Positions 2,644 to 59,456 of a stretch of DNA of 64,000 nucleotides are shown here, in pieces. Source of the DNA: Neofamilia massiliensis. GTDB lineage: Bacteria > Bacillota > Clostridia > Tissierellales > Peptoniphilaceae. The position numbers and the translations under genes are program-made. Numbering within the stretch: position 1 is the first letter of the stretch; every line of letters begins with the position of its first letter. The stretch spans positions 438,409 to 502,408 of the forward strand of contig NZ_CYUJ01000003.1 in assembly GCF_001299475.1 (NCBI RefSeq), in the 5' to 3' direction. The notes under the pieces were generated by a model, which searched no databases, was not told the origin of the DNA, and worked only from the letters and a program-made list of their open reading frames with translations.

Positions 2644-3111
2644 TTATAAATCTACCAGCCAATTAGTTCTTTGGATGGCTATATCTAAATTTCTTGCCTC
2701 CTTAGAAAGCTTGTCTGCCTTGGTCTGAAGGACTTTTGAATCTACAGTTGCAATAAACTTAATTTCTGACTTGCTATAACGATTTTGTGGAGTTGCACTT
2801 TCTGCCAGGTCCCTTAGCTTAGAAGCTAAAGAAACTAGCCCTTCCTTTTTTGCTAGAGCCTCTTGAATTGTTATGTCCAAGGGATTTCCATCTTCATCAA
2901 CTAGCTGTGACTGGCTGTTGGCCTTGTGGATTTTAGCTGTAAGTTCAACTAAAGATTTGTTGGCCTCTTCCAGTGACTTAATTAATTTTTCTGGGTCCTC
3001 TTGAGCCACTTCCCCTTCTTGGACCAAAAGATTATTTCTGGCCCTATTATAAAAGTTATAAATCTTCTCTTCTAAATCTGCCTTAGTTATAAGTCCTTCT
3101 GCTATTTTCAT
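2644..3111 (-). CDS. DIP1984 family protein
   Basis: The 155 residues starting at MKIAEGLI match the DIP1984 family (once called septicolysin-like): a helical, charged protein with the RYSKSEIKFIATVDSKVLQ signature and C-terminal DIAIQRTNWLVDL. Most of it is predicted coiled coil. The function is not known. A longer frame opens at 3147, but GGGAGGA sits 7-8 nt before the ATG at 3111, so that start was chosen. The gene stands alone between two terminators. Confidence 0.8.
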   Translation of the reverse strand: MKIAEGLITKADLEEKIYNFYNRARNNLLVQEGEVAQEDPEKLIKSLEEANKSLVELTAKIHKANSQSQLVDEDGNPLDITIQEALAKKEGLVSLASKLRDLAESATPQNRYSKSEIKFIATVDSKVLQTKADKLSKEARNLDIAIQRTNWLVDL

Positions 3112-23044: not shown

Positions 23045-24346
23045 ATGAAAAAGAAACTTATTGGACTAGTTTTACTTTTAGCTTTAGTACTTAGCCTTGT
23101 ACCAACAAGTGCCTTTGCTAAATCAAATGTAGAAATAGTTCCAGACGACTATTGGACAGACTATTGGAATTGGTCTTACTACGACCACTATATAGAAATC
23201 TATGATGCTGATGGCAATTATGTAACATCAACAAGATATGGAAACATTGTAGACTTAAACAGAGGCGACTACACAGCCAAAGTTTATTATAATGGCGACT
23301 ACTATTATTCAGAACCATTTTATTACAATGGAATTGGCTCAAGAGTTTATCTAAACTACTATGGAAGATACGACAGATATGACAAATACACTCCATACTA
23401 TGACACAATATCAGGAGTAAATGTTTATAAAGACAGAGTAACAGGAAAAGCTGCTCCATATGCAGAAGTAACTCTTTATAATAGTAACGGCAGTCTAAAA
23501 ACAGTAACAGCAGACAGATACGGTGACTTTACTATCTACTATGACTTTGCCTACTACTACAACTACAAAGACTATGGCTATTGGTATGACCTAGACAACT
23601 ACTACCTAAGATCAAACGCTGGCCAAAGCTACTCACTTAAAAACTACTACATTGACGGCTACTATGACTATGACAAAAACCTAGTAAGCACACCACTAGC
23701 AGGAGACGACTTTATAAAAGGCGCTTGGGCATATCCATATGCAGAAGTAATAGTAAGAGACTACCAAGATAACCTACTTGGATCAGGAACAGCAAAGAGA
23801 GACGGAAGCTTCTCAATAGATTTAAACAGAAAACTAATAGCAGGAGAAGCCCTAAGACTAACAAGCACTAGAAACAACTACATTGACAAGACAACAACAG
23901 TAGTAGTTGGTGGCATAGAAAAATCAGAAAAAATCGTAAGCAAATTTGTAATCGGCGATAAAACTTATAGCCAAACAAAATACGACACAACAAAAACAGA
24001 AAAAATGGACGTTGCCCCATATATTGAAAACGGCAGAACAATGCTACCACTTAGATACGTAGCAGAAGCCCTAGGCTATGAAGTAAACTGGGACCAAGCA
24101 ACAAAGAATGCAGTCTTTATTAAAGGCTCAAACACAGCAGTAGTAAACCTATACTCAAGAGAAATCTATGTAAACGGTAAAAACTCAATGCTATCAGTAA
24201 TGCCAGTAACAGTAAACGGAAGAATTATGCTTCCAGTATCAGAACTAGGCATGGCCCTAGGCCTAAGCCACGGCAACTACGGCCAAGGCAAAAACATCGA
24301 ATGGCAAGGCTCAACAAACACAGTTTATGTAACAATATTCGAATAA
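23045..24346 (+). CDS. Secreted protein with copper-amine-oxidase-N-like stalk domains and a Tyr-rich N-terminal half
   Basis: The 433 residues begin with a Sec signal peptide (to ...VPTSAFAKS). Residues about 30-290 are extremely rich in Tyr and Asp, with two beta-sandwich-like units (AAPYAEVTLYNSNGSLKTV near 145; AYPYAEVIVRDYQDNLL near 235) resembling carboxypeptidase-regulatory-like folds. Residues about 300-433 form paired copper-amine-oxidase N-like domains (ENGRTMLPLRYVAEALGYEV; VNGRIMLPVSELGMALGL). These domains commonly bind cell-wall material in Firmicutes. The protein is probably secreted and wall-associated. AGGAGG precedes ATG, and a terminator follows. Confidence 0.8.
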   Translation: MKKKLIGLVLLLALVLSLVPTSAFAKSNVEIVPDDYWTDYWNWSYYDHYIEIYDADGNYVTSTRYGNIVDLNRGDYTAKVYYNGDYYYSEPFYYNGIGSRVYLNYYGRYDRYDKYTPYYDTISGVNVYKDRVTGKAAPYAEVTLYNSNGSLKTVTADRYGDFTIYYDFAYYYNYKDYGYWYDLDNYYLRSNAGQSYSLKNYYIDGYYDYDKNLVSTPLAGDDFIKGAWAYPYAEVIVRDYQDNLLGSGTAKRDGSFSIDLNRKLIAGEALRLTSTRNNYIDKTTTVVVGGIEKSEKIVSKFVIGDKTYSQTKYDTTKTEKMDVAPYIENGRTMLPLRYVAEALGYEVNWDQATKNAVFIKGSNTAVVNLYSREIYVNGKNSMLSVMPVTVNGRIMLPVSELGMALGLSHGNYGQGKNIEWQGSTNTVYVTIFE

Positions 24347-24358
24347 ATGAATAGAATG

Positions 24359-24384
24359 AGGACCGAGAAATCGGTCCTTTTTTA
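24359..24384 (+). terminator. Terminator of the stalk-domain protein gene
   Basis: AGGACCGA-GAAA-TCGGTCCT stem followed by six T. Confidence 0.85.
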
Positions 24385-24399
24385 TTTTGTTGTATGTGT

Positions 24400-24425
24400 G
24401 GGGACATTGCTTTAGCTGTGCCCCC
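24400..24425. repeat. GGGGAC palindrome (REP-like)
   Basis: GGGGACATTGC...GCTGTGCCCCC; the same sequence as the copy at 36028-36053 apart from one change in the right arm. Confidence 0.7.
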
Positions 24426-24449
24426 TTTCCACGTTACGACTTTATATGT

Positions 24450-24577
24450 GGGGACAGTCGAAGCCCTAGCCAAAATCTTTGATTTTGCAGCAGGTCTCGT
24501 GCAAAAGATTCCCAATAAGCCGACCAAAAGGAAGGCTGATTGGCTAGAATCTGACTGCCAATTTTAGCTGTGTCCCC
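24450..24577. repeat. GGGGAC palindrome carrying the ~100-nt core at its apex (reverse)
   Basis: GGGGACA at 24450 and TGTCCCC at 24571-24577 are the outer arms. Between them is the core in reverse orientation, starting GTCGAAGCCC and ending GACTGCCA (about 24457-24560). The right part TTTAGCTGTGTCCCC equals that of the empty palindrome at 36028-36053. A further half palindrome (GTGGGGACTGTCCC) at 24624 borders the IS3 element. Confidence 0.7.
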
Positions 24578-24686
24578 TTTCCAGTTTTAGCCCTAGTCTA
24601 AATCTACCCTTGCTCGCCATATCGTGGGGACTGTCCCTTTGAACTGATGTTTATAAAGTAGACACATAATTAAATTAATTTTATCT

Positions 24687-25592
24687 TTAGGATGCTTGAT
24701 TTCTATATTCTAGTGGACTCATGCATCCTAAGCCTTTTTGTAGTCTCACTTCGTTATAAAATTTAATGTATTGTTCTATATTTTCCTTCAATTCTTCCAG
24801 GCTTTTGAATTTTTTGTCATGAAACATTTCTGATTTTAATGTTCCAAAGAAGCTTTCCATTGGTCCATTGTCTATACATTTGCCTACTCTTGACATGCTT
24901 TGTGTCATTCCTGCTTCTTCTAGTTTTCTTTTAAATGTTTTGTTTGTGTATTGAAATCCTCTGTCACTGTGGAATAGTGGTTTTGCGTCTGGGTTACTCT
25001 CAATTGCTCTGTCAAACATTTTAAATACTAATTTATTGTTGTTTCTATATGATATCTCGTATTCTACTATGCTGTTGTCATATAGATCTTTTATCGCACT
25101 TAGATATAGCTTTCTGTTTTCTCCTGGAATCTTAAATTCTGTTACGTCTGTTAGCCACTTTTCGTTTGGCCTTGTTGCTGTAAAGTTTCTTGCTAGTATG
25201 TTTTCTCCGGTGTATTCTGGCATTATGGTTTTTCTGTTTACTTTTTTTCTTTTGACTCTTGATGATACGCCTAATACTTTCATTAGTCTATAAATGTAGC
25301 TTTCTGAAAAGTTTGTGCTGTTAAATTTATTTATATACATGGCCATATTTCTATAGCCTAGTATTCCATCAAATGTCAAATGATATTCTGATATTAACAT
25401 ACATAGCAACAGGTCCTGGTTTTCTTTTTCTGGTGTTATTCTTTTTTTGTTTTTGTAGTAGCTACTTCTTGATATGTTTAGTACTTCGCATATTAATTTT
25501 ACTGGATATCCTTTTTCTCTATAGTAGTCTACTGTTTGATATTCTGCTAGCTGTCTTACTTTTGTTACAGTTACTTTTCCTTCTTCTTTTAT
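24687..25592 (-). pseudogene. IS3-family OrfB (rve integrase core), interrupted upstream by a stop
   Basis: The readable product includes an HTH_21-like start (VTKVRQLAEYQTVDYY; NISRSSYYKNKK) and a DDE core: Asp in KWLTDVTEF, Asp in LFHSDRGFQYT and Glu in DNGPMESFFGTLK. In IS150-type elements OrfAB is made by a -1 frameshift. Here the -1 frame entered from orfA meets a TAA at 25593-25595, and no normal start codon precedes the helix-turn-helix part. The intact remainder can only start internally (TTG at 25409), which would drop the N-terminal domain. The element is probably immobile on its own. Confidence 0.7.
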
Positions 25593-25621
25593 TTATATTA
25601 TTTTTAATTTATTTCTCATTT

Positions 25622-26245
25622 TTATCTTAGGGCTCTTTCTTCGTCTAGTTCTAACTTTAGTCTTTCTGTTTCTGTTAGATTTTGTTTTTTTATCTTAGTC
25701 TTAGTTTTTCTTCCACGTTTCTTGTATTTTAGAGCTTCTTTACCATTTTCTAGATAGTTTTTTGTCCATTTATATATGTTTGCATATGGAATTTCATATT
25801 TTTCTGAAGCTTTTTTGTAGTTCATATTATTTTTTATTGTCCACTCTACAATTTCTATTCTTTCTTCATATGTGGTCTTTCTAGTTTTCATGGTAATGGT
25901 AGCTCCTTTGGTATAGTCTTTTAATTCTATTCCATTATACCATTTGTTTACCCATCTAACTATGGTGCTGTGGTTTAGATTGTATTTTGCGGATAAGTCT
26001 GCATATGAAGATTCTCCACTTACATATTCTTCTACTACTTTGTGTTTGAATTCTTTTGTGTAGACCTGTTTATGATCTGGCTTTTTAAAGGCTTCTTCTC
26101 CATGTTCTCTGTATCTAAAGCACCATCTTCTAATTGTTGATTTTGCTGCAGATAATTTTCTTGCTAAGCTATCATATGACTCTCTGCCTTTTTCATAATC
26201 TTTACAAGCTTTAATTTTTGTTTCTAAATCATATTGTTTGTTCAT
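25622..26245 (-). CDS. IS3-family (IS150-like) OrfA, HTH protein
   Basis: The 207 residues hold three helix-turn-helix units: DSLARKLSAAKSTIRRWCFRY, YADLSAKYNLNHSTIVRWVNKW and YKKASEKYEIPYANIYKWTKNY. This is typical of IS150-group OrfA, which binds the element ends. After the last helix comes a basic stretch (KKRGRKTKTKIKKQ) and the beginning of a leucine zipper (LTETERLKLELDEERALR) that ends early at the stop. The short zipper and missing overlap with orfB suggest a small deletion at the junction. Confidence 0.85.
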   Translation of the reverse strand: MNKQYDLETKIKACKDYEKGRESYDSLARKLSAAKSTIRRWCFRYREHGEEAFKKPDHKQVYTKEFKHKVVEEYVSGESSYADLSAKYNLNHSTIVRWVNKWYNGIELKDYTKGATITMKTRKTTYEERIEIVEWTIKNNMNYKKASEKYEIPYANIYKWTKNYLENGKEALKYKKRGRKTKTKIKKQNLTETERLKLELDEERALR

Positions 26246-26484
26246 CGATATACCTCCAAAGTATCTAGCGTATTTTTAATTAATTACGCTGTCTACTTTG
26301 GGCACATCGGTACACTTTGGGCCTGTCCCCCTTAACCACGTTACTACCAACCGCTAGGGAGAGTCGATTGGCTAAAATCTGACTGCCTATTTAGCTGTGT
26401 CCCCATTTAATCACAAATGAACTGCGTATTTGTAGTAAAACTGACTTTTTTGAACTGCGTATTTGCAAAAATAAAAATTATCGC

Positions 26485-26571
26485 CAAACACTGGAATGAA
26501 AAACGGACAAACACTGGAATGAAAAACAGCCAAATACTGGAATGAAAAATAGCCAAATACTGGAATAGAGA
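26485..26571. repeat. Tandem 23-bp repeat, four units
   Basis: Units start at 26485, 26508, 26531 and 26554 with consensus CAAATACTGGAATGAAAAAT plus three bases. The period is exactly 23 bp. The last unit is truncated. No spacer differences as in CRISPR, and no long open frame through it. Confidence 0.85.
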
Positions 26572-26681
26572 TTTTTTATTTTAAATTTAAAAGATACAAA
26601 AGCAGAAATTTGTTAGTTAACGAAATATACTCTGCGTCACAACAACTTTTGCTAACGGCGAAACCTTTCCACCATTCCACT

Positions 26682-26706
26682 GGGACACACATAAATGAAT
26701 GTCCCC
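26682..26706. repeat. GGGGAC-type palindrome, empty form
   Basis: GGGACACACATAAATGAATG followed by TCCCC. The loop is ATAAATGA; the same sequence with the core inserted is at 28879-29004. Confidence 0.75.
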
Positions 26707-27104
26707 TCACAGCCCTTGCCAAAAAAGGCGAAGCAGCGCTAGCTCCAACTCTTTAACTTATTAAATAGAGTAAAGAACAGAAAAAAACTTACTCAAACGG
26801 CGAAGCAGCCTTCCGCAGGAACAGTTTAGGGTGAAAGGAGAGGTAGGTCTCGGGAGGAGAACATGAGGGAGTCGAAGCCCTAGTCCAAATCTTTGATTTG
26901 GCTAACAGGTCTTATGTACAGATTTGAATCTGACTGCCAGCTCCCTTAGCCTCCTCCTGAGGGTGAAATTCTTTAAGTTAAAAAGAAAGATTATGCGTCA
27001 CAATAACTTTAAAATACGACGAAGCTACCACAATCTGTACGCTAAGGTAAAAATTTAAAATCAATAATAATTTAGAAATCAGCGAAGCCAAACCACCATT
27101 TTAT

Positions 27105-27130
27105 GGGGACACACATAAATGAATGTCCCC
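27105..27130. repeat. GGGGAC palindrome, empty form
   Basis: GGGGACACACATAAATGAAT followed by GTCCCC, 26 nt. It is the cleanest empty counterpart of the filled copy at 28879-29004. Confidence 0.8.
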
Positions 27131-27663
27131 TCACAGCCCTTGCCTACAGCGAATCCTTATCAAAGCTCTTCTAAAAGAAAGAAAAACCATTTTTCCTAAA
27201 CTCACCCAGCCATCGGCGAAGCAGCCTTCCGCAGGAACAGTTTAGGGTGTAAGAAAGGGTAGGGTTTGGGGAGGAGAACATGAGGGAGAATTAAAGCCCT
27301 AGTCCAAATCTTTGATTTGGCTAACAGGTCTTATGCAAAAGATTCCCAAGAAGCCGACTGAAAGGAAGGCTGATTGGCTAGAATCTGACTGCCAGCTCCC
27401 TTCGTTCCCTTCCCCAATTTATCTAAACTCTTTTAAAAGAAAATAAGATTAACTAGCCTAAACAACTTCAGCAAACGGCGAAGCTACCACATATTTCTAA
27501 CTAACACGATAAATCATGCGTCACAATACTTTAGTAAAAAAATAAAAATTAAAGAAAAACCAAAAAAATCCCCTATGTAACATCAACTTTACATAAATTC
27601 CTAGAAGATTTGCTAGAAAAATCTCCAAAGACAAGTATAATAAAAATAAAAGGAGGCAAAAAA

Positions 27664-28182
27664 ATGACCCTAGGAGAAAAAATCCAAAAACTAAGAAAAG
27701 AAAAACAAATGAGCCAAGAAGACCTAGCAGAAAAACTAAAAGTTTCTAGACAGACAATCTCACGTTGGGAACAAGACCAGGCCCTTCCTGACCTTTCAAA
27801 CATAATCGCCTTGGGAAAAATATTTTCCGTATCCATAGACGACCTGGTCCAAACAGACCTAGAAAACCTAAAAGACAACAAAGACACAGTCGGCCTAGCC
27901 AAAGACCTTTACGCCTATAAAATGCGAATAACCTTTGGCATTATCCTAATAACCATAGGAATAATAATGGCCATCGGCCTAAGCATATACGGCTCAATGC
28001 AAGATTCATATGTAGTAATGATTGATAAGCCAGACCTAAGTGGCCTCAAAGCATTTTTATTTGTAAATAAACTCTACTGGGTCTACTTCCTAAGCCTGGC
28101 CCTTGCTTTAGTAGGACTAGGCCTAACAGGAGTCCTAAACAAACTTGGGGTCTTTGGTAAAAAAGATAAAGAAGAAAAATAA
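27664..28182 (+). CDS. XRE-family regulator with C-terminal membrane segments
   Basis: The 172 residues have an N-terminal HTH_3 domain (EKIQKLRKEKQMSQEDLAEKLKVSRQTISRWEQ...) followed by a linker and two TM helices (about 92-116 and 136-158). Membrane-tethered XRE regulators of this form are common in Firmicutes and usually have unknown signals. AAAGGAGG precedes ATG at 27664; the frame is open further upstream, but that part lacks a ribosome site. A TATAAT lies near 27638. It is isolated in repeat DNA with its own terminator. Confidence 0.85.
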   Translation: MTLGEKIQKLRKEKQMSQEDLAEKLKVSRQTISRWEQDQALPDLSNIIALGKIFSVSIDDLVQTDLENLKDNKDTVGLAKDLYAYKMRITFGIILITIGIIMAIGLSIYGSMQDSYVVMIDKPDLSGLKAFLFVNKLYWVYFLSLALALVGLGLTGVLNKLGVFGKKDKEEK

Positions 28183-28197
28183 AGAAAATAAATTTAG

Positions 28198-28227
28198 GGT
28201 TTATCTCATAAAGATAGACCTTTTTTT
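28198..28227 (+). terminator. Terminator of the XRE gene
   Basis: GGTTTATCT-CATAA-AGATAGACC stem followed by seven T. Confidence 0.8.
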
Positions 28228-28336
28228 CAATTTCAAAAAATTTTTCTCATATTAAGTGACATTTTGACCGACACTTTATAAAATTCCGTCCCAAAAATCA
28301 CATCATATTTGGGACAAATCTATTTACGTATTAACT

Positions 28337-28663
28337 CTATTTATATACCTTCCAATAACCATCCCTAGCACTGCCAACGTATTCTATTATTTTTTCATCA
28401 GTGAGAACTTTTAAATCTCTTTTTATAGTTCTTTCTGTTACATTAAACTGTTTTGAAAGCTCACTAGCAGTAATTTTAGAGTTTGTTCTTATTATTTCAA
28501 CTATCTTTTTATGCCTATCTACTGGTTTTAATTTATCACTTTGAGTGACATTTTGGGTGACATTTTTGGTGACATTTTGCCATTCACTTTCACCGTCATT
28601 TTGACCGACATTTTGACCGTCATTTTGACCGTCATTTTGACCGACAAAAATTTTTTGTTTCAT
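28337..28663 (-). pseudogene. C-terminal fragment of a winged-helix/AlbA_2-type regulator
   Basis: The 108 residues consist of a low-complexity stretch (QNDGQNDGQNVGQNDG, then NVTKNVTQNVTQ) and a helix-turn-helix (KITASELSKQFNVTERTIKRD... GYWKVYK). This is the usual C-terminal end of large ATP-binding AlbA_2-type transcriptional regulators, but the N-terminal catalytic part is missing. The frame stays open upstream to about 28798 without a matching domain (AENCFEDEKEFFTYNFVFNS...). No ribosome site precedes ATG. I read it as a gene remnant; a small free-standing regulator is the alternative. Confidence 0.5.
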
Positions 28664-28798
28664 TGTTCTTGTCTTAGCAACGGCAAAATCATTTACTGTT
28701 TTTATATCAAGTACATAGGCTTCGCTATTAAAAACAAAGTTATAAGTAAAAAACTCTTTTTCATCTTCAAAACAATTCTCAGCTCTTGGGGAAACTTA

Positions 28799-29043
28799 CC
28801 AAATCTCTTCTAAAAGAAAGAAAAATATTTTTCCTAAACAACTTCAGCAAACGGCGAAGCCTTTACTACGATTCCCCCGGGGACACACATAAATAGGCAG
28901 TCAGATTCAACCAATCAGCCTTCCCTTTGGTCGGCTTCTTGGGAATCTTTTGCACGAGACCTGCTACAAAATCAAAGATTTTGGCTAGGGCTTCGAATGT
29001 CCCCTAACAATCCTTGCTAACGGCGAAGCAAACCACAATCTTT
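28799..29043. repeat. Repeat cluster with filled GGGGAC palindrome (core forward)
   Basis: GCGAAGC units at about 28851 and 29022 flank a palindrome whose arms are GGGGACACACATAAAT (28879-28894) and AATGTCCCC (28996-29004). Between them is a 101-nt core in forward orientation (28895-28995), from AGGCAGTCAGATT to GGCTAGGGCTTCG. No gene is visible. Confidence 0.8.
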
Positions 29044-29069
29044 AAAAAAAGACGCCTCTTAAGCGTCTT
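29044..29069 (-). terminator. Terminator of the first pilus-locus sortase gene
   Basis: AGACGC...GCGTCT stem followed by seven T on the minus strand, directly after the sortase stop. Confidence 0.8.
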
Positions 29070-29072
29070 CTC

Positions 29073-29918
29073 TTACTTTCTCAAATATTTAATTAAAGAA
29101 TAAAAATTCTTAAAAATAGCCAAGTACAAAATCACAGTCAGACCATAAGTCCCGTACTTTAATAACTTTGACGAAAGATCAGGTTCTTCACCGTGAATAT
29201 CTGAAAAAGATTTCAATTCCATAAGCTCTGGCTCTTCTTCCTCAACAACTCTGACCCCATTAACAAGTAACCTGTCAGGTCTAGGCGGTCTTAGCGGATG
29301 GCAGGCCATTAAAGAAACCATATCCAAATCGTCCTTGGCCTTCAAAAGATCCCAATCATAAGGCCCAATAACCTCATGATCAACAACCTCATAAGTCAAA
29401 AGCCCAGTAGGTCCATCAAGATAAAACCTGTCTCCAGCAACAAGGTCTTCGATCTTTAAAAACATCAGGTCTCCCCACCAGCCTCTGTGACCAGCAATAA
29501 CAGACCTTTGCCCTTTCCCACCAATAGGAAGAGCCGACCCCTCAAGTTGGGCAACACCCCAATCAAGGTGTTCATAAGTCGCATCAAGATAAACAGGTTT
29601 TCTAATATCTAACTTTGGAATATAAAGAAAAGAAAAAGCCTGGTCCTTATCAAAATCAAGATCATAACTAGCTTCAAGCTCATCATCTTGGTCATCCCTA
29701 AAAGGATCCACCAAAAGATTAAAAGACTGGTCCATTAGCCTTTGATTATAGGCAACAAACTGCCTAGCATCAAGATCTTCCTCGGCTTTAAAATCCGCAT
29801 AAGTACTAGAAGCAGAAAGCTCCCTAAAAGAAATCCTAGTCAGCCCCCAAAGCGGCAAAGCCAACCCAAGAATCACCAAAACATATCCAATAACAACCCA
29901 TGGAGATTTTTTTCTCAT
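29073..29918 (-). CDS. Class C sortase (housekeeping or pilus-type), variant active-site context
   Basis: The 281 residues have an N-terminal TM helix, a lid motif (VDPF, about residue 71-74), the sortase barrel with catalytic His in VIAGHRGWWGD, Cys in SLMACHPLRPPRPDRLLVNG and Arg in the same segment, and a C-terminal TM helix. The lid and two TM helices mark class C. The Cys context is ACHPLRPPRP rather than TCTP as in the two sister sortases, so it may handle a different substrate or the final wall attachment. It is separated from them by the RAYT gene and REP repeats. ATG has AGGAGGGAG upstream. Confidence 0.88.
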   Translation of the reverse strand: MRKKSPWVVIGYVLVILGLALPLWGLTRISFRELSASSTYADFKAEEDLDARQFVAYNQRLMDQSFNLLVDPFRDDQDDELEASYDLDFDKDQAFSFLYIPKLDIRKPVYLDATYEHLDWGVAQLEGSALPIGGKGQRSVIAGHRGWWGDLMFLKIEDLVAGDRFYLDGPTGLLTYEVVDHEVIGPYDWDLLKAKDDLDMVSLMACHPLRPPRPDRLLVNGVRVVEEEEPELMELKSFSDIHGEEPDLSSKLLKYGTYGLTVILYLAIFKNFYSLIKYLRK

Positions 29919-29937
29919 CTTCTCCCTCCTTTATATT

Positions 29938-29963
29938 GGGGACATTCCTTCAGGTGTGTCCCC
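29938..29963. repeat. GGGGAC palindrome (REP-like)
   Basis: GGGGACATTCCTTCAGGTG followed by TGTCCCC. It sits 20 bp upstream of the sortase start, so it is in the leader if transcribed from further right. Confidence 0.8.
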
Positions 29964-30006
29964 TTTATCTTCATCTAAACGTGTCGAATTGCACACGGTA
30001 TTTTCT

Positions 30007-30032
30007 GGGGACATTCCTTCAGGTGTGTCCCC
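30007..30032. repeat. GGGGAC palindrome (REP-like)
   Basis: Identical to the copy at 29938-29963. Between them is CGTGTCGAATTGCACACGG, also seen near 32738. Confidence 0.8.
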
Positions 30033-30058
30033 GTTCTCAGCACGATGGTGGTTTCACC

Positions 30059-30137
30059 GGGGACAGGCCCAAAGGGACAGTCCCCTTTCTTCCTTGCCCA
30101 CCAAAGTGTGGGGACTGACCCTTGTGGTCTGTCTCCC
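30059..30137. repeat. REPIN-like inverted doublet, downstream side of RAYT
   Basis: Unit 1 (30059-30085) reads GGGGACAGGCCCAAAGGG...GTCCCC. Unit 2 (30110-30137) is nearly the reverse complement (GGGGACTGACCCTTGTGG...). The two are separated by 24 bp. The RAYT gene ends 31 bp further on. Confidence 0.85.
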
Positions 30138-30167
30138 TTATCCACAAAAAACTATCTTTCCACAAAA

Positions 30168-30704
30168 CTATTTCCCAAACAAGAACTCATTATACAACTC
30201 AATTGCTCTATTAATATTATCAGAAAAATAGCCTAAAATATACCCACAATCGCAAAAAGAATTATCATTAGAAAGATAAAACCTGTGAGAAGTAAAACGA
30301 TCAATATAATCCTTAGATAACATAGCATTATCAGAATTTAAATGTATGTACCTAACAACATCCAACAAATAACTATCATCCTTACAAGCCTTAGAAGAAA
30401 ACCTAGAAGCAAATATAACCCCATACCTGTTATATTTCTTATTAAAATAGTAAGTATAAGACTGCTGAATGCTTTTCATAACCCTAGACAGCAAATCTCC
30501 CTCGGCCCTTAAAAGCAAATGAACATGATTGTCCATAATACAATAAGAATAAACACTAATAGGGTACTTTTCTTTAGCAGCTTTAACCAAAGAAATATAC
30601 TTATCCTTGTCCTGATCATCGATAAAAATATTATTACCATTATTTCCTCTAGCAAAAATATGATAAACACCAGAATCAGATAACTCTCTTGCTCTTCTAG
30701 GCAT
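30168..30704 (-). CDS. REP-associated tyrosine transposase (RAYT)
   Basis: The 178 residues match the TnpA_REP/RAYT branch of Y1 HUH transposases. They start MPRRARELSDSGVYHIFARG, have the HUH motif in CIMDNHVHLLLRAE (about residues 58-71), a Tyr-rich helix with QQSYTYYFNKKYNRYGVIFASR, and DVVRYIHLNSDNA. RAYTs are single-copy domesticated transposases that maintain REP/REPIN palindromes in the genome. Inverted GGGGAC doublets lie on both sides (30059-30137 and 30761-30844), and more are spread through the window. It is inserted between two sortase genes, so it is not part of the pilus pathway. ATG has AAAGGAGAA upstream. Confidence 0.9.
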   Translation of the reverse strand: MPRRARELSDSGVYHIFARGNNGNNIFIDDQDKDKYISLVKAAKEKYPISVYSYCIMDNHVHLLLRAEGDLLSRVMKSIQQSYTYYFNKKYNRYGVIFASRFSSKACKDDSYLLDVVRYIHLNSDNAMLSKDYIDRFTSHRFYLSNDNSFCDCGYILGYFSDNINRAIELYNEFLFGK

Positions 30705-30760
30705 AAATTCTCCTTTATAAAAAACGTTTTGTTGGTTAACTAAGGTAATGTGGTTTCACC

Positions 30761-30844
30761 GGGGACAGGCCCAAAGGGACAGTCCCCTTACTAATTCCCC
30801 TGTCTCCACACAACGTGGGGACTGACCCTTGTGGTCTGTCCCCC
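30761..30844. repeat. REPIN-like inverted doublet, upstream side of RAYT
   Basis: Unit 1 (30761-30787) and unit 2 (30817-30844) repeat the arrangement at 30059-30137 in the same order, with a 29-bp spacer. It also separates RAYT from the sortase gene ending at 30857. Confidence 0.85.
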
Positions 30845-30856
30845 TTTACTACATTA

Positions 30857-31708
30857 CTACCAAAACTTTGACTTCTTCTCTATTTCCCTAATCCTTCTAA
30901 ACCTCTTCACAGTTAAAATCGCAACGATAATAACAAGAAGGCCAAGGCCATAAACCCACAGCCTTAAATCCCTGCCAGTTGGCATAGTGAGAATAGGTTC
31001 AACAACAGGCGGAACATATTCGACCCTGTGGCCCCTAACTAACAACCTGTGAGAATTAATCATATAAGGCGTACAAGTGAGTAAGGTCATAAGATCTTCC
31101 CCCTCAACAACCAAAACAGGCTCAAAATTACTAGGCTCAACAGTGAGAATTTGGTCCACCTCATAGGCAAGAGTCGTCTCAAGATTCGTATAATAGAAAA
31201 TATCTCCCATCTCCATCTTGTCAAGGTCCCTAAAGAGCTTTACAGAAGGAAGGCCCCTGTGGGCAGTAATAACCGCATGAGTATCAACTCCCCCAATAGG
31301 AAGAGAAGTTCCCTCCAAGTGGCCACAAGCCTTTTGCAAAACTTCCTCAGAAGTTCCCGCATAAACAGGAATGTTCTCCCTGATTTTAGGAACAGAAACA
31401 TAACCAATATGCTCACGAAGCTCAAGCATCCTAGCATAATTTGCGATCCCCTCTTTCTCCTCATCAGAATAAGGATCCGCCAGCCTCGAAGGATCAAGAG
31501 TCTGATTATAAAGCCTCGCCAGTCTCATCCTCTCTTCGATTTCCTCACGATCAAGAGCCTGAGCCCTTTCATCAAAAGCCATAACCTCATTATTATTTTG
31601 CACCCTATAATAAAAATTCGAAACCATAGGATAAACAAAAATCAAAAGACCAAGGACAAAAATCAAAATAATCTTCCAGTTTTTCTTAAAACCCTTACTA
31701 ATCTTCAT
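30857..31708 (-). CDS. Class C sortase, pilus assembly
   Basis: The 283 residues have an N-terminal TM helix after KISKGFKKNW, a lid motif (DPYSDEEKE), catalytic His in VITAHRGLPS, Cys in LLTCTPYMINSHRLLVRGHR with the Arg, and a C-terminal TM helix. This is the standard set of a pilin-polymerising sortase. The ATG at 31708 overlaps the end of the preceding sortase gene by 11 bp, so the two are translated together. A longer frame to 31819 is open, but it lies inside the upstream gene and has no ribosome site. Confidence 0.92.
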   Translation of the reverse strand: MKISKGFKKNWKIILIFVLGLLIFVYPMVSNFYYRVQNNNEVMAFDERAQALDREEIEERMRLARLYNQTLDPSRLADPYSDEEKEGIANYARMLELREHIGYVSVPKIRENIPVYAGTSEEVLQKACGHLEGTSLPIGGVDTHAVITAHRGLPSVKLFRDLDKMEMGDIFYYTNLETTLAYEVDQILTVEPSNFEPVLVVEGEDLMTLLTCTPYMINSHRLLVRGHRVEYVPPVVEPILTMPTGRDLRLWVYGLGLLVIIVAILTVKRFRRIREIEKKSKFW

Positions 31709-32678
31709 TAGACTCGTCCCTTTCCTTATTAACTTGATTATTAAGACCTTGACCACCAGCAGCCTTCTCTTTATCAATCTCCCTTTGCTTTCTGGCAATA
31801 GCCCTAAGCTGACGCTCAAGCCTCTTAGCCTTCCTATTTAAGAAAATAAAGGCGATAAGAAGAATTAAAAGAATTACAGCCAATACAATAAAGGCCTGCT
31901 TATAAATAAAGTTAGAAGAAAGATCCTGAATAATAGGCTCCTCAACCTCAGGAATATAATCAATCCTATGACCTCTAACAATAAGCCTGTGAGTATTAAT
32001 CATAACAGGCGTACAAGTAAGTAGAGTCATAAGGTCTCTGCCAGGTTGAATTAAAAGCTGACTAAAATCGCTAGGGTCAATAACATCAATATGGTCAATT
32101 TGAAAAGCCATAGTCCCTTCGATATTGTGATAATAAAACTTGTCCCCAACCTCAAGATCGTGAAGGTCAGTAAAAAGTCTAGCCTTAGGAAGCCCAGAAT
32201 GAGCAGTAATAACAGAATGAGTAGAATTCCCCCCAATAGGAAGAGAAGTCCCCTCAAGATGCCCTGCCCCCTTTTGCAAAACCTCCTCAGCCGTACCAGC
32301 ATAAACAGGAATATCGATATTAATACGAGGAATTTGGATATGGCCGATCTTCTCATGAAGCTCAAGCATCCTAGCATAATTCTCAAAAGCCTCCTCCTTC
32401 TTATTCTCAGAATAAGGATCCTCAGTAATAATATTAGCAAGAGTATCATTATAAACCTGGGCAAGGTCCATACGACGAGCAATCTCTGCCTCATCAAGCT
32501 CAGACCTAGCCTCTTGGAAATCCGAAACCTCATTAGACGCCTCAACCCTATAATACCAATCCGAAATCATAGGATAAGACAAAATCCCCAGCCCAATAAT
32601 AAAAACCAAAACAAAAGGCCAATTAGACTTTTTCTTTTTTCTTTTCTTTTTTTTCTTAAAATTCTTATCTTCGTTCAC
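31698..32678 (-). CDS. Class C sortase, pilus assembly
   Basis: The 326 residues have a Lys-rich start (KKKKKRKKKKSN), TM helix 1, lid motif DPYSENKKEE, catalytic His in VITAHSGLPKAR, Cys in LLTCTPVMINTHRLIVRGHR and TM helix 2, followed by a long basic cytoplasmic tail (about residues 280-326). It is closely related to its downstream partner and probably arose by duplication. The start is GTG. The two enzymes may prefer different pilins of the locus. Confidence 0.92.
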   Translation of the reverse strand: MNEDKNFKKKKKRKKKKSNWPFVLVFIIGLGILSYPMISDWYYRVEASNEVSDFQEARSELDEAEIARRMDLAQVYNDTLANIITEDPYSENKKEEAFENYARMLELHEKIGHIQIPRINIDIPVYAGTAEEVLQKGAGHLEGTSLPIGGNSTHSVITAHSGLPKARLFTDLHDLEVGDKFYYHNIEGTMAFQIDHIDVIDPSDFSQLLIQPGRDLMTLLTCTPVMINTHRLIVRGHRIDYIPEVEEPIIQDLSSNFIYKQAFIVLAVILLILLIAFIFLNRKAKRLERQLRAIARKQREIDKEKAAGGQGLNNQVNKERDESNED

Positions 32679-34009
32679 TTAAAATACCTCTCAGTGTGGG
32701 GACTGACCCTTGTGGTCTGTCCCCTTTCTATTAACCGTGTCGAATTGCACACGGTTCCTTGGGACTTCCAATTGTTGTCTGTCCCCTTTTCCAAAAGGAG
32801 TCGAAACCGACCCCTTATCCAAACCCCCTCGAAATCGAGGGGTATAACAAAAATAAATTAACAAAATCTCTCTACTATAATAACATTTATTAAACAAAAA
32901 ATCACTTTTATAATTAAGTATAAAAACACAAAAATTATTTTGAACAAGCAAAAAATAAAATAAAAACTCTTTTCCTTTTTCAAAACAAATTAGCTTCGCC
33001 ATTTACTAGATTTATTCTAACGCAAAGTCTTTTTCTTTAAATAAGATATTTCTCTACCTCAGGAGGAGGCTAAGGGAGTTGAAGCCCTTGTCCAAATCTC
33101 CGATTTGGCTTACAGGTCTCATGCCAAGAATTCCCAAGAGGCCGACCAAAGGGAAGGTCGATTGGCTAGAATTCGACGGCCTAGTATTCTCCCTCATCGC
33201 CTCCTCCCGAGACCCTCCTCCCCTTTCACCCTAAATTGTTCCTGCGGAAAGCTGCTTCGCCGTTTACTAAATCTTTTTAGGAAAAAACTTAATTTCTTAA
33301 CACACAGATTCTGGTTATTATTTTTAATTAAAAGTAAAATTCACAAATAAAAAAGCGATAGCTCCAATTATCTCACTTATTAAATAAAATTAAAAGCAGC
33401 AAAAACTTATGCAAACGGCAACAGCTAGCGATAGCTCCAATAAAGTTAATTACATAATTAAGCATCAAGCAGAAAATACTTCTGATACCACAAAGATCAG
33501 CCCTCTGCAAGAGCTCTACAGGGTGTAAAAAGAGGTAGGGTTTGGGGAGGAGAACATGAGGGAGTTCGAGCTTCCCTTCGTTCTCCTCCCCAAGAGCTGA
33601 GAATCTTTTTGCTAACAGAAAAAGTAATCAACTGAAATAACTTCACTACACGGCGAAGCTACCACAATTATTCTAAAATAAAGAAAAAACTATTTTCCTA
33701 AACTATTTTCGCTAACGGCGAAGCCAAATAAAATTATTTTTGAAGAAAGAAAAAACGCTTTTCCTAAACTCTTTTCGCTAACAGCGAAGCCTTAACCACG
33801 ATTCCACCGGGGACAGGCCACAAATCGGCAGTCAGATTCAACCAATCGACCTTCCTTTCAGTCGGTCTCTTGGGAATCTTTTGCATGAGACCTGCTACAA
33901 AATCTAAGATTTTGGCTAGGGCTTCAACAGTCCCCTCACAACCCTCGCAAACAGCGAAGCAAAAACCTCCCTTTTGTTAAAAGAAATTTCACAAAAAATA
34001 TATTTTAAT
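32679..34009. repeat. Repeat-rich region between sortases and the minor pilin
   Basis: No gene is visible in 1.3 kb. Contents: a REP unit (32698-32724) with a degenerate partner (about 32760-32788); a reverse core copy (33079-33182) inside CTCAGGAGGAGGC...GCCTCCTCCCGAG arms; an empty GGGGAGGAGAAC palindrome (33544-33591); GCGAAGC units at about 33655, 33720 and 33784 with 65-bp spacing; and a filled GGGGAC palindrome (33809-33935) with the core forward (33827-33927). The IS200 copy follows at 34010. Confidence 0.75.
33544..33591. repeat. Empty long palindrome with GGGGAGGAGAAC arms
   Basis: Left arm GGGGAGGAGAACATGAGGGA, loop around TTCGAG, right arm ending GTTCTCCTCCCC. It is preceded by CAGCCCTCTGCAAGAGCTC and AGAGGTAGGGTTT, exactly as at 36547-36594. 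Confidence 0.8.
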
Positions 34010-34713
34010 AATAATCATCCCCCGGCGTAGCCGGGGGTTTTTCTAATGCGGCCCAAAGGGCCTGTATTACCAGCCACGCCTCAATGGCGTTGGTTAGTTC
34101 GCCACTTGCAACTTCTACTTGCTACCCTTTAAAAGGGTCAACTACATCAAATGTTAGTTGTTCGCTTAACTGATCTTGTTTTAATTGGTTTTGGATATAT
34201 TCTTGGATTGCTTTTGCATTTTTACCTGCTGTGTCTACATAATATCCTCTACACCAAAACTGTCTTCCTCTGTATTTATATTTTAATTTTCCCCATCTTT
34301 CATATATAATTATGCTACTCTTTCCTTTTAAAAATCCCATAAAACTTGATACTGATAGTTTTGGTGGTATTTCTACTAACATATGAATATGATCTGGGCA
34401 TACTTCCGCTTCTATTATGTTTACTTCTTTCCAGCTACATAATTCTCGAAGTATTTGTCCTATTTCTAATCTTTTGCTTCCGTAAAATTCTTTTCTCCTA
34501 TATTTCGGTGCAAATACTATATGGTATTTACAGTTCCATTTTGTATGTGATAAACTATGTTTGTCATTTATTGATGACATTTTCTTACCTCCTTGATATT
34601 TTTTATTGCAGTTGGCGAACTACAATTTAATTATATATCATAGGAGGTTTTTTGTTGGTTTTTCATCGCTAAAGCTATACTGAACCCCCAGTCTAACTGG
34701 GGGTTTTCTTCTT
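34010..34713 (-). mobile_element. IS200/IS605-type insertion sequence, copy 2
   Basis: 704 bp, nearly identical to 166-869, with the same end hairpins and an intact tnpA. It inserted just downstream of the terminator of the minor pilin gene, at the edge of a repeat block. This is probably the active copy of the two. Confidence 0.88.
34122..34580 (-). CDS. tnpA: IS200-type transposase TnpA, full length
   Basis: The 152 residues are the normal length for IS200 TnpA. The HUH motif is in AEVCPDHIHMLVEIPP, with the tyrosine segment in GYYVDTAGKNAKAIQEYI and the C-terminal helix NQLKQDQLSEQLTF that copy 1 lacks. The enzyme cuts and joins single-stranded element ends. ATG has AGGAGGT upstream and lies near the 5' hairpin of the element. 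Confidence 0.93.
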   Translation of the reverse strand: MSSINDKHSLSHTKWNCKYHIVFAPKYRRKEFYGSKRLEIGQILRELCSWKEVNIIEAEVCPDHIHMLVEIPPKLSVSSFMGFLKGKSSIIIYERWGKLKYKYRGRQFWCRGYYVDTAGKNAKAIQEYIQNQLKQDQLSEQLTFDVVDPFKG

Positions 34714-34716
34714 TCA

Positions 34717-34741
34717 ACAAAAATAGGGCCCTAGACCCTAT
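34717..34741 (-). terminator. Terminator of the minor pilin gene
   Basis: ATAGGG...CCCTAT stem followed by TTTTTG on the minus strand, touching the IS200 boundary. Confidence 0.6.
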
Positions 34742-34744
34742 TTT

Positions 34745-35950
34745 CTAATTTCTCTCAGATTTAATTAAATACTTGCCTACAAGAACGAAAATCGCACCGG
34801 CAATAAACATAATAATTAGAGTAATATCCCCAACCTTAGGAATAGGAGTTTCACCCTCATCATCAGGTGTAGGAATTGGTTTCTTAAAATTCTCAACATC
34901 AATAGTCTTATCAAAAGACTCAGAATTTACAACAACCTCTATCTCATCCTGACACAAAACATAACCTTCAGGAGCCTCGGCCTCAATAACATAATGATAA
35001 CCAAAATCTAAATCCTTAAAAGAAAACCTACCATCTTTATCAGACCTAGCATGGATTTTGTCCCCATTTTCATCAGTCAAATAAACCTTCTCTCCATTAA
35101 TCTTCCTATAGATTAAAAAGTCAGCACCAGCAAGAGGAGTAGAATCCTCCCCATCAATCTTCTTAAAATTAATCTCGCCCTTTAATCTCTTGTTGACAAC
35201 ATGGACAAAACCGCCAGTATAATAATCCACCTTTACATAAGAAGATCCTCTCTCCATTTCATAACCAGGAAGAGTCCTAACCTCAACGAACTTATAAGTT
35301 CCCTTTGGCAGGTTAGTAATTCTAATGTAACCGTCCTTATCAGTAACTAGGTCTTCGACTTCCCCATCAGGATCGTAGACATAGTTCTTAGTCTTTACAG
35401 GATTTCCGTTTTCGTCATAAAGATGAAAGACTACTCCTTCAAGAGGTTTACCTCTGTCATCAGACTTAAAAAGTAAAATCTCTCCTGGTGGAGGAGGAGT
35501 ATCCCCTGGTGGTGGCGGAGTCTCGCCCTTAGTCCACTTAATCTTAATAAGAGGAGGAGCATCCTTACCGACTACAATAATATTATCAACTAGCCAGTAA
35601 TCACCACGAGGACTAGTAACATCCCTCATATAATAAACCCCAGTCTCAAGATCAAGATTTAGCTTATAAGAATCCTTATTAGAAATATGAAAAACATTCC
35701 TAGAACTCATCTCATCTAACCTGTCCTCAGACCAGCTAGACAAAATTTCTAAAAGCCTAAAATGATCAGGATAGGTCTTTAAAAGATCATCATTGATCTT
35801 CCAAAAAGCCACATCCCTAGGTCCCCTATCAGCCCCATCACCTGGACTCATATCTAATTCAGTAGCAAAAACCTGCCTAGGCCCAAAAACAAGCACCAGT
35901 ACAAGTAAAAATAATAAAATTGTAAATTTGTTTCTATTAAAAGTTCTCAT
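34745..35950 (-). CDS. Minor pilin-like surface protein with SpaA/Cna-B domains
   Basis: The 401 residues start with a signal peptide (to ...RQVFATE). A region of about 120 residues precedes a Pro-rich linker (PPPPGDTPPPPGE, about residue 148). Two Cna-B/SpaA domains follow: ILLFKSDDRGKPLEGVVFHL...GYIRITNLPKGTYKFVEVRTLPGYE and INFKKIDGEDSTPLAGADFLI...FGYHYVIEAEAPEGY. The C-terminus has IPKVGD, a TM helix and a basic tail, an LPXTG-like sorting signal with Val-Gly in place of Thr-Gly. It is probably the pilus base or wall anchor. It is followed by a terminator, so the sortases downstream need another promoter. Confidence 0.82.
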   Translation of the reverse strand: MRTFNRNKFTILLFLLVLVLVFGPRQVFATELDMSPGDGADRGPRDVAFWKINDDLLKTYPDHFRLLEILSSWSEDRLDEMSSRNVFHISNKDSYKLNLDLETGVYYMRDVTSPRGDYWLVDNIIVVGKDAPPLIKIKWTKGETPPPPGDTPPPPGEILLFKSDDRGKPLEGVVFHLYDENGNPVKTKNYVYDPDGEVEDLVTDKDGYIRITNLPKGTYKFVEVRTLPGYEMERGSSYVKVDYYTGGFVHVVNKRLKGEINFKKIDGEDSTPLAGADFLIYRKINGEKVYLTDENGDKIHARSDKDGRFSFKDLDFGYHYVIEAEAPEGYVLCQDEIEVVVNSESFDKTIDVENFKKPIPTPDDEGETPIPKVGDITLIIMFIAGAIFVLVGKYLIKSERN

Positions 35951-36753
35951 AATTTCCCCTAATTAATAATATAATAAAATGTCTAACATGGGAACAATGT
36001 CCCCGTTTTTTTTATTTTGCCCTGTCTGGGGACATTGCTTTAGCTGTGTCCCCTTTCCACAAAAAATATTTTGCCCAAAGGCTATGTAGTGGGGACAAAT
36101 CGTCCCCGTTTATTTTTTCGATGTGGGGACTGACCCTTGTGGTCTGTCCCCTTCTCAGCAAACTGTGGTAATGCTTCGCCGATTACAATAGTTACCTCGA
36201 CGCATACTCTATCTCTTTATCTTAATGAGTCGCTACCTCAGGAGGAGGCTAAGGGAGTCAGATTCTCCCTCATCGCCTCCTCCCGAGACCCTCCTCCCCT
36301 TTCACCCTAAACTGTTCCTGCGGAAGGCTGCTTCGCCATTGACAAAAGTTGTTTAGGAAAAGATTCATTATCTTAACCTACGAATTGTGGTTGTTTTTTA
36401 GTTATAAACTAATTTTTAGTTTTTAAAAAGCGATAGCTCCAATAACTTTTGAAAATGCAATTAAGTTTAGCACTGAAAATATTTTAGCTAACACGAAGAT
36501 CAGCCCTCTGCAAGAGCTCTACAGGGTGTAAAAAGAGGTAGGGTTTGGGGAGGAGAACATGAGGGAGTTCGAGCTTCCCTTCGTTCTCCTCCCCATTTTA
36601 CCTAAACTCTTTTAGAAGAAAGAACGAGTTCTTAATATTAATTTCTATCGCTAACAGCGAAGCAAACCCCAACTTTTTTAGTTAAAGAGAAAGATTATGC
36701 GTCGCAATAACTTTAGAATACGGCGAAGCAAAAATCATCTCTCCCCTATGTAA
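35951..36753. repeat. Repeat-rich region between minor and major pilin genes
   Basis: No gene is visible. Contents: REP-like palindromes at 36028-36053 (empty GGGGACATTGC type) and 36125-36151; a short GGGGACAAATCGTCCCC near 36092; an empty palindrome with CTCAGGAGGAGGC/GCCTCCTCCCGAG arms (36237-36286) whose loop is CAGATT-like; an empty GGGGAGGAGAAC palindrome (36547-36594); GCGAAGC units at about 36655 and 36722. The GGGAACAATGTCCCCGTTTTTT at 35986-36008 may act as a terminator. Confidence 0.7.
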
Positions 36754-36778
36754 CCACACTGGCACTAGGCCAGTATGG
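36754..36778 (-). other. Strong hairpin after the major pilin gene
   Basis: CCATACTGGC...GCCAGTGTGG pairs over ten positions with one mismatch, 22 bp beyond the stop. There is no T run, so it may be a processing or stability stem that limits read-through into the minor pilin gene rather than a classic terminator. Confidence 0.5.
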
Positions 36779-36799
36779 GAAACTTAAATTTATAAAATC

Positions 36800-39130: not shown

Positions 39131-39154
39131 AATAAACTCCTTCGTTTTATTTTT

Positions 39155-39241
39155 CTGGGATTGGGTCCCAGTTCCCATAATTTCCTAGACTCTTTCAAGT
39201 CTTCTTAACTCTGGGATAAGGGTCCCAGTTCCCTTATTATA
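39155..39241 (-). promoter_or_regulatory. Promoter -10 and twin hairpins ahead of the major pilin gene
   Basis: TATAAT at 39236-39241 on the minus strand is followed at once by GGGAACTGGGACCC...ATCCCAG (39211-39234) and, 56 bp later, by a second copy (39155-39176) just before the ribosome site. Each forms a CTGGGA/TCCCAG stem. The -35 is weak. The pair could be operator sites or RNA hairpins that tune pilin expression. Confidence 0.5.
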
Positions 39242-58859: not shown

Positions 58860-59456
58860 GATTTTGCTTAAATGATTGGTAAGATTTGTTAGGGGACATT
58901 CATTTATGTGTGTCCCCGGTAAATGGTGGTAGGCTATCGCCAATCGCAAATTGAGTTTAGGAAAAATGTTTTTTCTTTCTTTTGAATGATTGTGGTTGGC
59001 TTCGCCATATTCTAAATTTATTGTGACGCATAATCTTTCTCATTGACTTAATGAGTTGCCACCTCAGGAGGAGGCTAAGGGAGCTGGCAGTAAGATTCTA
59101 GCCAATCGACCTTCCTTTCAGTCGATCTCTTGGGAATCTTTTGCATAAGACCTGTTAGCCAAATCAAAGATTTGGACTAGGGCTTTAATTCTCCCTCATC
59201 GCCTCCTCCCGAGACCCTCCTCCCCCTTCACCCTAAACTGTTCCTGCGGAAGGCTGCTTCGCCGATTGCCAAGAGAATTGAGGTTAAATAGTTTTTCTTT
59301 CTTTTAAGATAATTGTGGTTTGCTTCGCCGTTGGCAAATTGAGTTTAGGAAAAATGTTTTTTCTTTCTTTTTAAAGTTTGTGGTAGGTTTCGCCGATTTC
59401 TAGGGGACAGGCCCAAAGGGACAGTCCCCTGGCATAGAAACAGAGCAACAAAAAAT
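58860..59456. repeat. Repeat-rich region upstream of the histidine operon end
   Basis: No gene is visible. Contents: a REP unit (58892-58917); GCGAAGC units at about 58932 and 58998; a core copy forward (59096-59188) inside CTCAGGAGGAGGC...GCCTCCTCCCGAG arms; the flank ACCCTAAACTGTTCCTGCGG; GCGAAGC units at about 59257, 59321 and 59387 (64-66-bp spacing); and a REP unit (59403-59429). Confidence 0.75.

Follow-up and report, generated by a model that had tools for sequence, protein, structure and literature searches.

Why does a stretch of about 100 nt occupy the apex of some copies of a short palindrome, while other copies of the same palindrome nearby lack it? The question is raised by a 64-kb stretch of DNA, analysed over its whole length and called here the window, in which the GGGGACA palindrome at 28879-29004 is interrupted exactly at its loop. 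A first, sequence-only reading had taken the interrupting core for a small element of its own, inserting into or carried by hairpin loops; no description of such an element was found in the open-licence literature. The explanation that we favour, at about an even chance of being right, is that the core is mobile but not autonomous, an element of about 85-150 nt (100 nt here) that is conserved in structure and moved in trans. Such a mobile unit is favoured because exact empty twins, structural conservation and varied targets come together in it.

The genome that contains the window comprises 1.92 Mb in three contigs and carries 17 near-full core copies of about 100 nt, seven of them in the window. 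Their blastn E-values, from 5.6e-61 to 5.8e-18, exclude chance resemblance. A covariance model (R1) identified 19 places in the same genome, 17 of them above 100 bits. The window also holds 22 GGGGAC-type palindromes without a core, each of 26-27 nt (a manual count with one mismatch permitted per arm), and several coreless copies of a second, longer palindrome family (family 2). The features of the window are as follows, HP1 and HP2 denoting the two hairpins of the core.

28895-28995, plus strand: core, reference copy (model 121.3 bits, structure columns, empty twin at 26/26), with HP2 at 28897-28953, HP1 at 28955-28995 and the insert proper at 28895-28994
28879-29004: filled GGGGACA palindrome, outer stem plus core, with a predicted three-way junction fold
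27105-27130: empty palindrome, exact twin of 28879-29004 minus the 100-nt insert
26681-26706: second empty palindrome, differing at one letter
24459-24560, minus strand: core inside the GGGGACA palindrome 24450-24577 (model 113.7 bits)
33826-33926, plus strand: core inside the GGGGACAGGCCACAA palindrome 33809-33935 (117.2 bits)
27292-27394, minus strand: core inside a family-2 palindrome (110.9 bits)
33080-33182, minus strand: core inside a family-2 palindrome (104 bits)
56743-56844, plus strand: core inside a family-2 palindrome (105.3 bits; twin at 50/50), insert proper 56745-56844
59085-59187, plus strand: core inside a family-2 palindrome (105.6 bits)
36547-36594, minus strand: empty family-2 palindrome, exact twin of the copy around 56745-56844
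36237-36287: empty family-2 palindrome with the other arm type, apex TCAGATT
36028-36053: empty GGGGACA palindrome
26873-26939, minus strand: partial core, found by model search (46 bits)
57068-57112, plus strand: partial core broken within HP2 and adjoining another palindrome, found by blastn (89% over 45 nt)
26366-26404: partial core, found by blastn

The ten coordinate pairs of the sequence-only reading hold the sequences ascribed to them, with end offsets within about 10 nt, and the twin that it placed at 26682 is indeed a near-identical empty palindrome, except that the first G given for it is a T (26681). The empty palindrome 56387-56413 resembles that of the filled copy 33809-33935. Both orientations of the core, as had been claimed, occur within family 2: four copies (L011, L012, L013 and L015) lie one way and three (L014, L016 and L017) the opposite way, and the core at 33080-33182 is oriented relative to its arms oppositely to that at 59085-59187.

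The junctions can be read directly from the empty twins. Removal of 28895-28994 from the filled palindrome 28879-29004 leaves 27105-27130 at 26 of 26 letters, and removal of 56745-56844 from 56719-56868 leaves the reverse complement of 36545-36594 at 50 of 50. Both inserts measure 100 nt, and their ends (AGGC..CTTC and GCAG..CTTCG) are 1-2 nt apart. Compared with its twin, neither insert has duplicated target letters or a direct repeat able to explain precise loss. Junction mapping against empty palindromes, which had been put forward with the first reading, is thus exact at two window sites, with ends constant to a shift of 1-2 nt. Among the 17 copies of this genome, 14 have an empty twin at no more than five mismatches in 26 nt, the match of L010 being left out of this count as its own core. 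The search in other genomes covered fetched stretches, with 12 cut positions tried per copy: in Peptoniphilus duerdenii (G027), exact empty twins (28/28) were found for 2 of 32 copies and twins within three mismatches for 12 of 32, and twins that were never exact were found in Urinicoccus massiliensis (G153, 4/7), Ndiopella massiliensis (G034, 2/4), G001 (1/7) and Peptoniphilus nemausensis (G063, 1/5), with none in Peptoniphilus ovalis (G143, 0/7).

Target duplication is absent at all four exact empty twins (two in the window, two in P. duerdenii). By eye, we saw no terminal inverted repeats, the ends GGC.. and ..CTTC not pairing as such, and no constant target sequence; the left flanks share no common tetranucleotide and the right flanks have a weak purine-A-A tendency. 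A classical DDE-type MITE was rejected on the lack of terminal inverted repeats by eye and of target duplication at the four exact twins. The empty sites compared were either further copies of the repeat within one genome or tuf genes from a given species and its relatives. In the same-genus genome G001, the conserved genes of window 24000-37000 align, and the repeat-rich 24317-27575 corresponds to about 630 nt without any match to it.

The core is widespread. Model R1 matched 69 of the 130 genomes searched in the family, taken as Peptoniphilaceae, and 24 of its 39 genera, with 1 to at least 31 copies per matching genome; across the order 79 of 249 genomes matched, 22 belonging to other families and 16 of those with one match. 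These large searches apply stricter filters and cap the number of candidates scored, which makes their copy numbers lower bounds. P. duerdenii has the most copies found of any genome, at least 34 above 90 bits in the fetched stretches. In other families of the order (L264, L266-L269 and L028), the core lies within a longer conserved repeat; a ParE-type toxin gene is located near the core at L266 and L268, and at L265, also from another family of the order, a RAGATH-18 RNA (2949-3011, minus strand) lies 45 nt from the core on the same strand. Searches of plasmids and phages at E 1e-5 gave no match to the window core, the version of the core found at rlmD had no match in phage records, and no viral contig showed the HP1 pattern. 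Phage or plasmid carriage was rejected on this lack of core matches in phage, plasmid and viral-contig searches. One Anaerococcus plasmid matched the rlmD version, solely in the flank and at the terminus of a recombinase gene.

Some copies lie at the ends of genes rather than in palindromes. At tuf in G103 (L075), the core lies downstream of a complete EF-Tu gene and a terminator-like stretch, and next comes a second tuf 3' end, which begins exactly at the CTTCG of the core with 22 identical nt; the order is the same in G102 (L078). Of the seven tuf genes present in five genomes of the G102/G103 genus, two have a core at their end and the other five have none within 1.5 kb; a short stretch resembling the core end lies about 310 nt past the second tuf of G103. 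At tRNA-Leu(CAG) in G103 (L146) and G104 (L151), the core is directly followed by a repeat of the 5' half of the gene that begins beside the anticodon, with 34 identical nt in one case and 59 of 60 in the other. The 5' half of this tRNA gene and a stretch upstream of it are duplicated around the core, as in integration that replaces a 5' half. The G102 relative of the tRNA locus has no core, and two weak model matches (26.9 bits) lie 100-450 nt from the tRNA.

The third gene is rlmD. L089 and L271 are RlmD by TIGR00479, and L091 matches the L089 protein at 40%. In all three, the rlmD frame continues through ..HV into the core codons EALAL or EAVAL and then a stop, so that the core is positioned at the point HV/EA. 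The claim that the core has no reading frame therefore stands for the dispersed copies, whose lengths vary by 1-2 nt, but not for rlmD, where its reverse strand supplies the last codons; the same length variation led us to reject, for the dispersed copies, a coding peptide like that of the Rickettsia palindromic element. Among nine rlmD-type loci, the core runs directly into an RlmD-type tail in eight, L087 not doing so in that frame, and the 5' side is not rlmD in six. Judged by eye, tails such as EAVTLLVKE* and ETVCLMSRK* would belong to RlmD or to its exchange partner. At L172, the 5' side belongs to the end of an element that carries a pair of large serine recombinase genes, separated by a short ORF with a recombinase domain, and the tail EAIALIQKM* in the Anaerococcus plasmid terminates a serine recombinase gene. 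Streptococcal integrative and conjugative elements (ICEs) integrate in rumA by means of a serine integrase and swap the 3' ends of rumA and the integrase gene (PMC4701971). The rlmD loci fit this pattern, and the core is therefore located at, or very near, the crossover point of rlmD/rumA integrative elements. Restoration of the gene end at a fixed crossover, the test for rlmD/rumA integration, holds for the rlmD copies only. The rlmD of the window genome (L095, C2:27173-28432) has no core and ends in the tail of the Anaerococcus-plasmid serine recombinase gene, and for this reason an integrative element or its remnant probably sits there.

These loci lead to the alternative that survives best, namely that the core is the smallest member, or a leftover end, of the large-serine-recombinase elements of rlmD (rumA), the dispersed copies being secondary insertions. 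It is a possible explanation, if one on the unlikely side. The completion of the reading frame at HV/EA in L089, L091 and L271, the large serine recombinase genes adjoining the core in L172 and the exchange of gene 3' ends by rumA ICEs (PMC4701971) all speak for it. No integrase gene is encoded in the core, and its contact with recombinase genes in L172 does not imply dependence on them. On the other side, the palindrome targets have no evident sequence in common with the rlmD site, most rlmD-type loci lack rlmD on the 5' side, and 103 nt would be very short for two recombination half-sites.

How general, then, is the palindrome apex as a site? In the window genome, the sites are GGGGACA palindromes and the second family, the latter entered in both orientations. 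Elsewhere, the palindromes are of other types: GGGCGA-type (G034, G063 and G153), GGAGGGG (G143), GGGGGACAG in Peptoniphilus lacrimalis (G141) and GAGGGGAACTAAGGGG (G001). The complementarity of 30-nt flanks was compared with that of flanks swapped between genomes for 121 copies with 30 nt on both sides, forming 104 flank clusters in 27 genomes; this sample omits short or N-containing flanks, the damaged L040, L046 and L065, unfetched model matches, and L028 and L118, which occupy the same place as L067. At or below the 5% control line (-9.9 kcal/mol) were 33 of the 104 clusters (Mann-Whitney p = 2.5e-5), all in nine of the 27 genomes, namely the window genome (9 of its 16) and G001, G015, G034, G063, G141, G143, G148 and G153. 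None was found in P. duerdenii (0/24), G013 (0/5) or G102-G104 (0/15). Because complementary flanks are confined to these nine genomes, apex placement, strong in the window genome, is only partly general. The proposal of insertion into hairpin loops holds to the extent that the core occupies the apexes of unrelated palindromes, but it does not describe a general rule, given the nine of 27 genomes and some copies at gene ends.

The flanks also bear on whether core and palindrome travel together. Fourteen pairs of P. duerdenii copies share at least 96% identity in the core and less than 60% in a flank. A core tree of 24 sequences (17 from the window genome and seven from G001) requires three or more switches between palindrome families, and a tree uniting all family-2 cores is rejected (p-AU 0.007), most branches being weak. 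At L098-L114 of P. duerdenii, one palindrome type (CACCCTGAG .. AGTCGAATGGGTATAACC) bears many different tip hairpins, the core being only one of them, and the tips of this palindrome look exchangeable.

On the next alternative, the core is a passenger of REP-type palindromes that was taken up by a few loops and copied thereafter only within the composite repeat, arms and tips being swapped through gene conversion or template switching between hairpins. We consider this unlikely. All seven fetched copies of G001 lie in one palindrome type, with 86% mean flank identity, and in P. duerdenii left and right flank types occur in several combinations, which, like the many other tip hairpins on one palindrome type there, is as this account would have it. 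It accords poorly with arms that are unrelated between genomes and of two families in the window genome, with opposite orientations inside one family, with exact empty twins that have no direct repeat at the junction to mediate loss, and with the copies at tRNA-Leu, tuf and rlmD. The first reading had conceded that the copies might be simple duplications of a composite repeat; nearly constant ends, a fold of their own, exact twins, a place at the apexes of unrelated palindromes and the rejected family-2 clade argue against duplication alone. Gene conversion between repeats could nevertheless mimic independent insertions and blur the core tree.

The fold was assessed on an alignment of 28 cores from four genomes (17 from the window genome, six from G027, three from G034 and two from G013). 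Its consensus consists of two adjoining imperfect hairpins that are unlike in sequence. Across 34 pairs, 96.5% of cells are standard pairs, compared with 85.8% in shuffles. The covariation score reaches 0.333, whereas shuffles give 0.140 and sliding the partners gives no more than 0.091; 118 cells are altered on both sides against 42. Two of five covariation measures do not beat shuffles: pairs with a change on both sides (13 vs. 11.5, equalled in 104 of 500 shuffles) and further pair types (26 vs. 30.1). Conserved bases lie at the feet of the hairpins (CCAATC, TTCTTGG, GCATGAGACCTG and CTAGGGCTTC), and the tips are variable. In the predicted fold of the filled copy 28879-29004, the palindrome arms pair as the outer stem of a three-way junction; as DNA this copy folds better than 200 of 200 dinucleotide shuffles (z -3.3), as does its reverse strand as RNA (z -4.2). 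By eye, G103 and G104 have a longer HP1 tip, and in G034 part of HP2 has been replaced by a palindrome. At L126 and L133, from two species, an extra short piece (ACCCACAGGGCACA..) lies between both hairpins.

Conserved unpaired bases together with covariation would suit a structured non-coding RNA or regulatory element with a selected function, spread by ordinary duplication, an explanation that we find distinctly improbable. Against it stand the high copy number of some genomes beside 61 of 130 that have no match, the exact empty twins, the occurrence of both orientations within a single repeat type, and the lack of any Rfam match overlapping a core at five loci searched with E values as high as 5. 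Rfam at the gathering threshold likewise gave no match overlapping a core in the window and 25 loci. A known RNA family was rejected on these Rfam results.

Mobilisation by IS200/IS605-type (Y1) or IS110-type transposases is very improbable: the window genome has 13 Y1 matches and one IS110 match, and REP sequences are targets of insertion sequences, the IS110 family included (PMC1525189), but at E 1e-5 neither is found in G001, G063, G010, G102, G104 and G013 (2-24 core matches), and in P. duerdenii Y1 gives no match and IS110 a single one. At this threshold, Y1 (PF01797) matches 71 of 130 family genomes and none of the core-bearing G001, G063, G010, G102, G104, G013, G027 and G122, and the IS110 DEDD transposase (PF01548) matches 35 of 130 and none of G001, G063, G010, G102, G103, G104, G013 and G034. 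Both candidates are weakened by these absences, to be read with the draft state of several of these genomes (G001 73% and G013 81% complete), in which copies may be missing, and with the possibility that enzymes have since been lost.

Several other features of the window were recorded. Y1 (IS200-type) transposase matches lie at 338-736 and 34122-34580 (minus strand), each preceded by an Rfam STnc490 match (746-861 and 34590-34705); since STnc490 precedes both, this suggests that it is the 5' leader of IS200-type elements. The IS110-family transposase at 1007-2230 (minus strand) is the sole match in this genome at E 1e-5. At 40117-55746 (minus strand), a 5209-aa open frame, perhaps a giant surface protein, has genes for an LPXTG pilin (36800-39178) and a sortase (29073-29918) in its vicinity.

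We return to the mobile unit moved in trans. The analysis established the unit, its ends to 1-2 nt, a covarying fold, exact empty twins in two genera, several target families and insertion sites in both orientations. The view of the core as a distinct element was borne out by its nearly constant ends, its own conserved structure, its exact empty twins and its presence at the apexes of unrelated palindromes. Site-specific recombinases act at the centres of inverted repeats, in anticodon loops and at the rlmD crossover. The core would enter DNA intact, with no duplication of the target where that is a palindrome. It would often land midway between the arms of an inverted repeat, and these arms would become the third stem of a three-way junction. 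The difference between filled and empty sites would stem from insertion rather than from precise loss, and what is recognised would be a folded strand or a cruciform. A site-specific recombinase would act in trans, as the copies at the anticodon loop, the rlmD/rumA crossover and the tuf end suggest. Long direct repeats accompany the core at tuf and tRNA-Leu but not at palindromes, and the sites may not share one mechanism.

As a tentative extension, itself rather unlikely, the target may be picked by shape, the trans-acting recombinase inserting the core, as a folded strand with both its hairpins formed, at the open tip of a hairpin or cruciform. The target would then be whichever palindrome abounds in the host, and the hairpin would become a three-way junction. 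If this is true, the copies at the anticodon loop and at integrase sites would tie palindromic repeats to integrative elements.

To our knowledge, the movement of small dispersed palindromic repeats is mostly unexplained. In the present case, the DNA alone reveals the unit with its boundaries, its fold and its exact empty sites, and one and the same unit occurs in palindromes of REP-like character, in tuf and a tRNA gene, and in a gene known for ICE integration. This legibility and the variety of sites allow a direct test of hairpin tips as targets and of the recombinase, and the covariance model lets the family be searched in other anaerobes.

Among known systems, ERIC, RUP, Correia and Rickettsia palindromic elements are, like the core, dispersed, foldable and non-autonomous sequences of about 100 nt; we know of no apex-of-palindrome placement or two-hairpin fold for them. 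The comparison with them is one of description (see also PMC2229807 and PMC10969869). With REPINs and REPs moved by RAYT (Y1) (PMC3116915), the core has in common that it is small, hairpin-forming, multicopy and non-autonomous. In contrast to REPINs, it consists of two unlike hairpins rather than an inverted pair of like REPs, it lies inside REP-like palindromes, and several carrier genomes have no Y1 match. The REP-targeting insertion sequences IS1397, IS621, ISPa11, ISPpu9 and ISPpu10 insert into palindromic repeats as the core does, but they encode a transposase (PMC1525189), whereas the core has 100 nt and no gene. The core lacks features that define REPINs and features that define REP-targeting insertion sequences. 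Unlike rumA ICEs with a serine integrase, it has no integrase or transfer genes, and most of the copies found lie elsewhere; it shares with them the same gene end, the exchange of C-terminal codons and short direct repeats (PMC4701971).
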